DNA of 15,317 nucleotides, from assembly GCA_018260755.1 (NCBI GenBank), contig JAGTWP010000002.1, positions 36,724 to 52,040 of the forward strand. Reading direction: 5' to 3'. Shown here piece by piece: positions 10,445 through 15,317 of the stretch. The notes under the pieces were generated by a model, which saw nothing but the letters and a program-made list of their open reading frames with translations, had not been told where the DNA came from and searched no databases. The stretch is from Candidatus Altarchaeum sp. GTDB taxonomy: Archaea; Altiarchaeota; Altiarchaeia; Altiarchaeales; Altiarchaeaceae. A program made the position numbers and the translations under genes. Positions within the stretch are counted from its first letter, which is position 1. Every line of letters begins with the position of its first letter.

Positions 10445-10495
10445 GTAACTATTCAACCACCCCCTTCAATAAGTAAAATATTTTGTAACTATTCA
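10443..10495 (+). repeat. Direct repeat TTGTAACTATTCA, 40 bp apart
   Basis: The 13-mer TTGTAACTATTCA occurs at 10443-10455 and 10483-10495. Between them is a C-rich patch (ACCACCCCCTTC) unlike the surrounding AT-rich DNA. The pair may be ends of a decayed insertion element or binding sites for a metal-responsive regulator; neither could be confirmed. Confidence 0.7.
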
Positions 10496-10510
10496 GAGGG
10501 TACAAAAATT

Positions 10511-10570
10511 TACTGAAAATTTATAAATAAATTTTCAATCTTAAAAAATATTTCAAATATTTTTTAATAC
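10511..10570 (+). repeat. Two stacked perfect palindromes with TAC/ATC/TAC junctions before wtpB
   Basis: TAC (10511-10513) is followed by a palindrome with 10-bp arms (TGAAAATTTA, 10514-10523; partner 10528-10537; loop TAAA). Then comes ATC (10538-10540), a second palindrome with 13-bp arms (TTAAAAAATATTT, 10541-10553; partner 10555-10567; one-base centre C), and TAC (10568-10570). The same order and junction triplets occur at 15219-15317. The element lies 41 bp before the wtpB start. It may be an operator, an RNA structure in the wtp transcript or a dispersed repeat. Confidence 0.85.
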
Positions 10571-13801: not shown

Positions 13802-14136
13802 CTTTTATTTTTGTTCAGATTATATTAGTATATATCGGAGTTTTTCTTAATTAAGGTAAATTTCCAGTTATAAATTTAAATAATTTAATCAATTAATATC
13901 CCGAAACAAAAAATTACAAATTTTAGTTAACCTGGTAATTACATAGACAAGTATAAAAATTCTGAAATTTGTGTGGTTAAGATTGAAATTATTTTCAAAA
14001 CACAGAATTTTGAAAATATCCGAGCAACGGCGAGGTTATATAACAATTTGTAAAGAATATTTCGGATTTTAGAATCCATCTTATATTTATTTTGTTATAA
14101 AATAAATTATCACAATCAAATAATATATTTTATAAA
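13802..14136. promoter_or_regulatory. 335-bp divergent spacer between aldolase and phosphofructokinase
   Basis: On the minus strand TATA-like GTATATAT (13828-13835) lies 27-34 bp before the aldolase start. On the plus strand TTATATTTA (about 14081-14089) and a second AT run next to the start face the kinase gene. Several inverted repeats occur: 13991-14017 (separate entry), GTTATATAAC (14035-14044), GGATT/AATCC (14064-14077), and ATTTATTTT with its partner (14085-14093, 14099-14107). ATC follows both 14017 and 14077 directly, as in the palindrome arrays elsewhere. A GC-richer CGAGCAACGGCGAGG sits at about 14020-14034. No open frame or tRNA was seen. Confidence 0.5.
13991..14017 (+). repeat. 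Dispersed palindrome, 10-bp arms, copy before phosphofructokinase
   Basis: The arm ATTTTCAAAA (13991-14000) pairs perfectly with 14008-14017 around a 7-nt loop CACAGAA. The core is nearly the same as the palindrome at 15196-15218 (TTTCAAAAC arm, loop GCAGA), so the kinase gene is flanked by two related copies. Confidence 0.85.
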
Positions 14137-15117
14137 GTGATGTTAAATACGAATAAAAAAATTGCAATTATTACACCCGGAGGGGATGCACCGGGAATAA
14201 ATACATGTATCAGGGCAGTTGTCAATTGTGCGATTGATTCTGGCTTTGAAGTTGTAGGTGTGATGAACGGCTATCAGGGGCTTATAGATGAAATCCCTGT
14301 TAGAAGATTAGATGCCGAAGTAGTAAAGAATATAATTCACAGTGGCGGCACAATGTTAAAAAGTTCAAGATGTACCCAAATCAAAAATCCTGCTGGCTTA
14401 TCAAAAGCAGTAAAGACATTAAAAAAGAATAAAATTACTCATCTTATTGTTATTGGTGGCAATGGTTCTGTCATAGGGGCTGAAAAAATTTCAAAAAGCG
14501 GTATTTCTGTTATCTGCATCCCTGTAAGTATTGACAATGATATTTTCGGAACCGATGAAACAGTCGGTTTTGATACCGCTATAAATACAGCTGTTGGTGC
14601 GATTGACAAAATTCGTGATGTGGCAATTAGTTTTGACTGTGTGTTTATAATAGAAGTAATGGGAAGACATCACGGTTTTCTCGCAGTTGAAGTCGGGCTT
14701 GCCACAGATGCAGAATTTATTTTAGTTCCGGAAATAAAACAGGACATCAATAAAATTTGTGATAAATTAAAAGAATATCAAAAAAAGAAAAAGACATCTG
14801 CAATAATTGTTTTTGCCGAGGGTTGCGGCGATGTTAAAAAACTTGCGAAACAAATTTCTCACAACACAGGAATCAAAATAAGGACAGACACCGTCGGTTA
14901 TATTCAAAGAGGCGGCCATCCATCAGCACGAAGCAGAAATCTTGCGAGCCGCTTCGGAAGTTTCGCGATTGATTTAATTTCAAAAGGTTATAAAAACAGA
15001 GTTATCGTTTTGCACAAAAGTGAAATAAAATCACTATCTATACAAAAAGTAATTTCCGAAAAAAAGGAAGTAGATATTGAGACATTAAAACTCGCAGAAA
15101 AATTTGCCAGATATTAG
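14137..15117 (+). CDS. pfkA: 6-phosphofructokinase, PfkA family, atypical donor site
   Basis: Cytoplasmic kinase converting fructose 6-phosphate to the 1,6-bisphosphate (326 aa, like bacterial PfkA). PGGDAPGIN (14-22) is the nucleotide loop and GGTMLKSSR (70-78) matches the E. coli GGTFLGSAR. The catalytic loop PVSIDND (129-135) keeps Asp133 and Asp135. MGRHHGFLA (175-183) and QRGGHPSARSR (sugar-phosphate side) are conserved. Two positions are odd. The Mg-ATP motif GGDGS reads GGNGS (107-111), with Asn109 for Asp. The residue that is Gly in ATP enzymes and Lys in pyrophosphate enzymes (PGTIDND/PKTIDND) is Val130. Gly110 still favours ATP. The frame opens with GTG at 14137 immediately followed by ATG at 14140, which may be the true start. 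It is divergent from the aldolase. Confidence 0.92.
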   Translation: MMLNTNKKIAIITPGGDAPGINTCIRAVVNCAIDSGFEVVGVMNGYQGLIDEIPVRRLDAEVVKNIIHSGGTMLKSSRCTQIKNPAGLSKAVKTLKKNKITHLIVIGGNGSVIGAEKISKSGISVICIPVSIDNDIFGTDETVGFDTAINTAVGAIDKIRDVAISFDCVFIIEVMGRHHGFLAVEVGLATDAEFILVPEIKQDINKICDKLKEYQKKKKTSAIIVFAEGCGDVKKLAKQISHNTGIKIRTDTVGYIQRGGHPSARSRNLASRFGSFAIDLISKGYKNRVIVLHKSEIKSLSIQKVISEKKEVDIETLKLAEKFARY

Positions 15118-15120
15118 ACA

Positions 15121-15141
15121 TGTTATAAAATAACTTTTTCA
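15121..15141 (+). terminator. Small hairpin plus T run behind phosphofructokinase
   Basis: Right after the stop, GTTAT and ATAAC form a 5-bp stem with loop AAA, followed directly by CTTTTTC. This fits a weak terminator for the kinase transcript. Confidence 0.45.
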
Positions 15142-15195
15142 CCTTTGAATTCCTTTAAAATTTGGTAGTGATAAATATGTAATGCCGAAGGATAT

Positions 15196-15317
15196 TTTCA
15201 AAACGCAGAGTTTTGAAATACTAAAAATTATAAATTTTTAATCTTTAAAAATCTGCAAGATTTTTAAATACTGAAAATATTCAGATTTTCAATCTTACAA
15301 AATGTTTGGAACATTTT
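15196..15317 (+). repeat. Array of five different palindromes joined by alternating TAC and ATC
   Basis: Palindrome 1: arm TTTCAAAAC (15196-15204), loop GCAGA, partner 15210-15218; then TAC. Palindrome 2: arm TAAAAATT (15222-15229), loop ATA, partner 15233-15240; then ATC. Palindrome 3: arm TTTAAAAATCT (15244-15254), loop GCA, partner 15258-15268; then TAC. Palindrome 4: arm TGAAAAT (15272-15278), loop ATTCAG, partner 15285-15291; then ATC. Palindrome 5: TTACAAAATGTT (15295-15306), loop TGG, partner from 15310 cut by the window edge after AACATTTT. All visible arms pair without mismatch. Two types alternate, TAC-TRAAAAT..-ATC and ATC-TTNNAAAA..-TAC, with a period near 50 bp. There is no coding frame. 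Confidence 0.88.

Follow-up and report, generated by a model that had tools for sequence, protein, structure and literature searches.

Tandem two-hairpin units in Altarchaeum genomes, a probable small non-autonomous mobile element inserting 3' of (A/T)TAC

The window analysed here, a stretch of 15,317 nucleotides from Candidatus Altarchaeum sp., ends at base 15317 together with its contig (C13, 52040 bases) in a genome of 1.32 Mb and 78 contigs, and the repeats described in it below are given on its forward strand. An ATP-type 6-phosphofructokinase is encoded at 14137-15117; when it was sought in the three other Altarchaeum genomes for a comparison of the locus no match was obtained, and the gene was possibly gained by the source species. 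Just after this gene lies the remnant (15115-15163) of a dispersed MITE-like repeat, T5, which starts with TAGACATGTTRYAAAATAAC and whose sequence is common to at least nine other loci in the genus; where a copy is complete, it closes with ..TTTGCAACAACTCTA, which loosely repeats the start in inverted orientation. Nested in the T5 remnant is an element of type T3, of which the left terminal inverted repeat GGTAGTGATAAATATGTAATG (15164-15184) is present, whereas the right one falls past the end of the contig. The T3 end also bounds a TnpB-bearing element on contig C109 of another Altarchaeum genome, G003 (locus L299), there with an inverted right end and an 8-bp target duplication, AAACATAA.

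Within the T3-type element an array of five palindromes occupies positions 15196-15317, and the linkers between them are three bases each and read TAC, ATC, TAC and ATC, which confirms the layout that an earlier note on this DNA had reported. The first palindrome (TTTCAAAAC-GCAGA-GTTTTGAAA, 15196-15218; arm 9, loop 5) is of type D, the usual hairpin preceding arrays. Following a TAC linker (15219-15221), unit 1 consists of hairpin A (TAAAAATTATAAATTTTTA, 15222-15240; arm 8, loop 3), an ATC linker (15241-15243), hairpin B (TTTAAAAATCTGCAAGATTTTTAAA, 15244-15268; arm 11, loop 3) and the TAC that closes it (15269-15271). Unit 2 has hairpin A (TGAAAATATTCAGATTTTCA, 15272-15291; arm 7, loop 6), an ATC linker (15292-15294) and a hairpin B (TTACAAAATGTTTGGAACATTTT, 15295-15317) that is truncated by the contig end and has visible arms at 15299-15317 (8/3). 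Other copies of the cut hairpin (TTACAAAATGTTTGGAACATTTTGTAA, found 13 times between ATC and TAC) have the palindrome completed by GTAA, and GTAA would be expected as the next bases after 15317.

With arms of at least 7 and gaps of 3 nt, the longest chain of perfect palindromes in the window is four, the fifth palindrome being truncated. The possibility raised in the earlier note, that shuffled AT-rich sequence might give such chains, was not borne out, as chains never exceeded two in 200 dinucleotide shuffles of the window or in 5000 shuffles of its AT-rich tail. In 177 kb of stretches from the same genome, 70 palindrome pairs with arms of at least 7 and a gap of 3 were observed against 1.5 in shuffles, a count that shows the linker rule and not a genome-wide density because the stretches were picked around matches; in 61 of the 70 pairs the linker was GAT, ATC, GTA or TAC, and gaps of 0-2 were enriched far more weakly. 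A chance origin of the palindrome chain is ruled out by these shuffles of window, tail and 177 kb.

The chain of palindromes described earlier is real, but the true repeat is a unit of two unlike hairpins, A-ATC-B-TAC, of about 50 bp (period 50.6 +/- 3.1 bp), and the first palindrome belongs to a third type, D. Array statistics were taken from sequence stretches around matches in four Altarchaeum genomes. Hairpin A (T[GA]AAA..TTT[CT]A) measures 17-24 nt and follows TAC; lengths of 17, 19, 21 and 23 nt with a loop of 3 nt dominate, the arm length varying symmetrically. Hairpin B (TT..AA) is mostly 24-27 nt long and follows ATC, and this fixed order of type and triplet upholds the direction that had been assigned to the array. 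In total, 274 A hairpins were found in 171 arrays, 109 of them with a single unit, 41 with two units and the largest with eight, and exact tandem dimers and tetramers of units are present. The tetramer (A/T)TAC, which makes up 0.9% of sequence positions, immediately precedes hairpin A in 221 of the 247 units obtained by a search that did not demand it. At two loci (L318 and L316) A and B of one unit share an identical core (AAAATCTGCAAGATTTT; AAAATTTATAAAATTTT), which suggests that copying between neighbouring hairpins may occur.

A D hairpin (TTTTCAAAAC-n-GTTTTGAAA) often precedes the first unit of an array, and an imperfect hairpin of type C (ATCTCCGAACGAAGTGAGGTGAT) or type E (TACACGAACGAAGTGAGCGTA) often follows the last. 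Two features are retained in hairpin C, a T.T mismatch and tandem G.A/A.G mismatches, of which both GA are present in 140 of 166 copies, and its remaining pairs vary with compensation. The C family (ATCTCCGAACGAAGTGAGGTGAT and variants) occurs at many loci in all four genomes, with 97 matches to one pattern in G001 alone. A related D-C pair is found in the window at 13990-14039, where a perfect palindrome (13990-14018) is followed by an imperfect C hairpin, ATATCCGAGCAACGGCGAGGTTAT (14016-14039), in which both the T.T and the tandem G.A mismatches are kept.

The pattern of hairpin A with its flanks, searched for because further copies had been called for, is spread through the genus, with 42 matches in the source genome (G000), 10 in Altiarchaeales archaeon A3 (G001), 75 in Ca. 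Altarchaeum sp. CG2_30_32_3053 (G002) and 93 in Candidatus Altarchaeum sp. HURL_140 (G003), all of them fragmented metagenome assemblies that are 65-87% complete. The other archaeal genomes searched, 57 in number and including 25 from the same class, gave no match. Twelve contigs of the source genome end in arrays (C7, C8, C13, C32, C38, C43, C45, C47, C63, C66, C72 and C78), and since so many contig ends fall within arrays, breakage of the assembly at these repeats helps to explain the frequent interruptions. Single matches to the A pattern occur in unrelated bacteria and look like chance. A viral origin was also considered and rejected: IMG/VR yielded two A-pattern matches only (L037 and L038), judged to be chance, and none to the E hairpin, and the 83 scattered matches to the T1-end pattern in that collection were obtained with a pattern that is too loose. 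No prior description of these units was found in the literature searched, which included few subscription papers.

A second copy in the window links the units to mobile carriers. At 10485-10570, between genes for a tungstate-type binding protein and a permease, the left end of T1, an IS66-type MITE, lies at 10485 (C13:47208) and is followed by one A-ATC-B-TAC unit (10514-10570). T1 has the terminal inverted repeats (GTAACTATTCAG), the 8-bp target duplication, exact in 29 of the 57 T1 copies printed, and the related transposase of an IS66-type MITE, the latter as a broken IS66 transposase (PF03050 match, G001:C134) inside the T1 ends of a 1.7-kb copy in G001. As a carrier, T1 fits the IS66 family of MITEs; the hairpin units are inserts in it and are also found outside it. 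A second family, T2 (GTATTTGTTTAGCTAATT), has 8-bp target duplications too, and of the 41 A clusters in the source genome, 29 are no more than 450 bp away from the end of a T1 or T2. Altogether, the MITE families in which hairpin units were found number at least three and are unrelated, and units also lie outside any MITE. In G003, arrays (L052, L075, L118 and L109) are also enclosed in repeats that read CACACGAAGACACAGAGACACAAAG..CTTTGTGGCTTTGTGTGA.

Comparison of empty and filled sites supports the suggestion of the earlier note that the array is a hairpin-type mobile repeat, as does the covariation described below. On the 5' side of an Lrp-like gene, the sole empty/filled case found in unique sequence, G002 is empty: stop and start codons are separated by 23 nt, of which 19 nt end in AAATAC and are followed by ^ATAA and ATG. 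In G001 the same 19+4 nt are split by exactly 106 bp, corresponding to two units, and in G003 by 176 bp, corresponding to three units plus a single A-type hairpin, with the flank length unchanged. At this locus whole units have thus been precisely gained or lost 3' of TAC. Base elements of T1 (101 bp) read TTTAC^CTACG when empty and are filled with one unit in G000 and G001 and with two in G003, the hairpins differing between these species, and T2 likewise has an empty form, TTTTAC^ATAGTC, alongside filled forms. Insertion is thus seen 3' of a fixed 4-5 bp without further target duplication at AAATAC^, TTTAC^ and TTTTAC^. The D/C junction is an exception, its short form GAAA^ATCTCC having no TAC; this form may reflect a deletion between similar hairpin arms or a unit phased as TAC-A-ATC-B. 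Many matches to joined flanks are repeats within arrays, and only the T1, T2, D/C and unique-locus cases were used. At the atpB locus no clear empty/filled comparison was obtained because the genomes differ widely downstream.

The claim that pairing rather than sequence is preserved held when changes in the two arms were counted together. Among 40 different A hairpins of 19 nt, the fraction of paired cells is 93.8% and 18 cells are changed on both sides against 6.8 in shuffles, with none of 500 shuffles reaching 18, and in 27 C hairpins 21 such double-changed cells compare with 7.5 in shuffles; as the sequences are related to one another, these figures are not probabilities. Mismatches that would form G-U in RNA of one strand (33) are matched by those that would form G-U on the other strand only (A-C, 31), and this overall equality points to pairing that is kept at the DNA level or by strand-symmetric copying. 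At the loop-closing pair alone, T.G was counted 24 times and C.A 11 times. Compared with shuffles, the fold reaches a z of -6.2 as DNA and of -3.6 as RNA.

The analogy with REP/BIME hairpins drawn in the earlier note holds well for the layout but not for the enzyme. REP, BIME and REPIN sequences with their RAYT (TnpA_REP) transposases are short intergenic palindromes of which pairs replicate, with higher-order arrays, compensatory changes and a short tag by the hairpin (PMC3116915, PMC3733652). The Altarchaeum units are likewise intergenic palindromes at high copy number that are paired, arrayed, compensated and tagged. In contrast to the REPIN, in which inverted copies of one REP form one long hairpin, they are made of two unlike tandem hairpins, A and B being separate, adjacent and joined by ATC; the tag is (A/T)TAC before A, with the linker ATC, and not GTAG or CGTC; and they are archaeal, are nested in MITEs and come without a detected Y1 (RAYT) transposase. 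Y1_Tnp (PF01797) was found in none of the four Altarchaeum genomes at their 65-87% completeness, in searches that were positive in five control genomes and in G012, a genome of the same class.

Two other systems resemble the units. The PATEs of Haloquadratum walsbyi are archaeal and transposase-free, with two near-terminal palindromes, 52-bp terminal-only forms, a 5' target of 4-5 bp without target duplication and heavy nesting of mobile elements (PMC3119063). Host domain, lack of a transposase, two palindromes, a size of about 50 bp, a 5' target and nesting are shared by the Altarchaeum units, which differ in forming tandem arrays of up to eight and in that no IS605-type element with A/B ends was found among nine Altarchaeum TnpB regions. 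The double-hairpin or repetitive hairpin-forming elements of fungal and sponge mitochondrial DNA are very short two-hairpin units, tandem, intergenic and variable between close relatives (PMC2800124). Presence and absence between close relatives is also seen for the Altarchaeum units, a likeness in working for which no common descent is claimed; there the hosts are organelle genomes, and here a fixed TAC target, an ATC linker and nesting in an IS66-type MITE are found. On these comparisons, the units are read as an archaeal variant of the REPIN, PATE and double-hairpin kind, that is, as a mobile double-hairpin element.

We propose that the array probably consists of head-to-tail copies of a small, non-autonomous mobile element of two unlike hairpins, A-ATC-B-TAC, of about 50 bp, which inserts 3' of (A/T)TAC and is carried by MITEs. 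A unit would insert immediately 3' of an (A/T)TAC already in place and restore the target with its own TAC end, target and end product both being visible in the sequences. The next unit would land beside the restored TAC, or the unit would duplicate in tandem, and either way of amplification would yield alternating TAC and ATC. MITEs of several families, one of them IS66-type, bring units to new places, as seen from their 8-bp target duplications. A paired DNA form, with single-strand or cruciform hairpins, may be needed for movement as in IS200/IS605 and REPIN, copying from arm to arm perhaps contributing to the pairing, and the mover would be a hairpin-recognising enzyme with an IS200/IS605-like choice of target. 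Against this proposal, neither a transposase nor any other gene is tied to the units, gain in G001 and G003 and loss in G002 are not formally separated, recombination between shared MITE hairpins could partly spread arrays, and the short D/C form is without TAC.

Arrays that are transcribed into a structured RNA, or act as terminators or mRNA-stability elements, and are selected for their RNA fold would have stable covarying hairpins, a negative RNA fold z and the observed bias towards T.G at the loop-closing pair. The multi-hairpin RNA that the earlier note had offered has nevertheless become highly improbable. Arrays are intergenic in 130 of 132 cases, in classes of intergenic region that match the background, and their orientation to tandem genes (28:22) is without bias; this random gene orientation and the failure to find a recurrent neighbour gene family beside the arrays argue against RNA or terminator roles. 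The near-equal mismatch totals, the DNA fold signal exceeding that of RNA, the lack of an Rfam match at the gathering threshold and the presence that differs by species at one locus also speak against them. Terminal-only PATEs, in which A and B are the left-end and right-end hairpins of an IS200/IS605-type transposon with the target TTAC or ATAC and the Y1 transposase has been lost or is absent from the assemblies, would fit the fixed tetranucleotide 5' of the unit without duplication, the two near-terminal palindromes, the length of about 50 bp close to that of the 52-bp Haloquadratum forms (PMC3119063), and the TnpB genes present in G001 and G003. This origin is nonetheless quite unlikely, as no Y1_Tnp was found in the four genomes and A/B hairpins are missing from the ends of the nine TnpB-bearing regions examined; among the regions whose ends are visible, most have terminal inverted repeats. 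The TnpB gene of L299 (G003:C109, about 23677-25009; PF01385, PF07282 and PF12323) lies in an element bounded by the inverted ends GGTAGTGATAAA and flanked by an 8-bp target duplication; these terminal inverted repeats set it apart from IS605-type elements, which have none. Six more TnpB genes of G003 (L300-L305) are located between inverted ends AGTGATTTCGCTTT..AAAGCGAAATCACT at different insertion places.

The units might also be passive cargo, the hairpin pairs having arisen in MITEs, spread by MITE transposition and recombination between shared hairpins, lengthened by replication slippage and been kept paired by template switching at palindromes, which copies one arm onto the other. The closeness of most source-genome clusters to T1 or T2 ends and the exact tandem dimers and tetramers fit such a history, as do the cores shared by A and B of one unit, and the symmetric changes in arm length and near-equal G.T and A.C mismatches agree with arm copying. 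We consider it rather unlikely, because units are confined neither to one MITE family nor to MITEs as such and mostly stand after (A/T)TAC with exact junctions, and because nothing but whole units has been added at the unique-sequence locus. An element that itself moves to (A/T)TAC is the reading we prefer. More tentatively, the units may constitute a self-standing class of archaeal mobile DNA, in which two-hairpin units of about 50 bp are moved in folded form, single-stranded or cruciform, by an enzyme other than Y1 that attaches them 3' of TAC, and in which the companion hairpins with tandem G.A mismatches serve as a recognition or end module.

Altarchaeum genomes contain many apparent, very small mobile units, and one orthologous site is cleanly seen empty in one species and filled in others, yet the transposase that accounts for hairpins of this sort in bacteria was not found. 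It can now be tested which enzyme moves double hairpins, and whether their pairing persists through selection for movement or through copying between arms.
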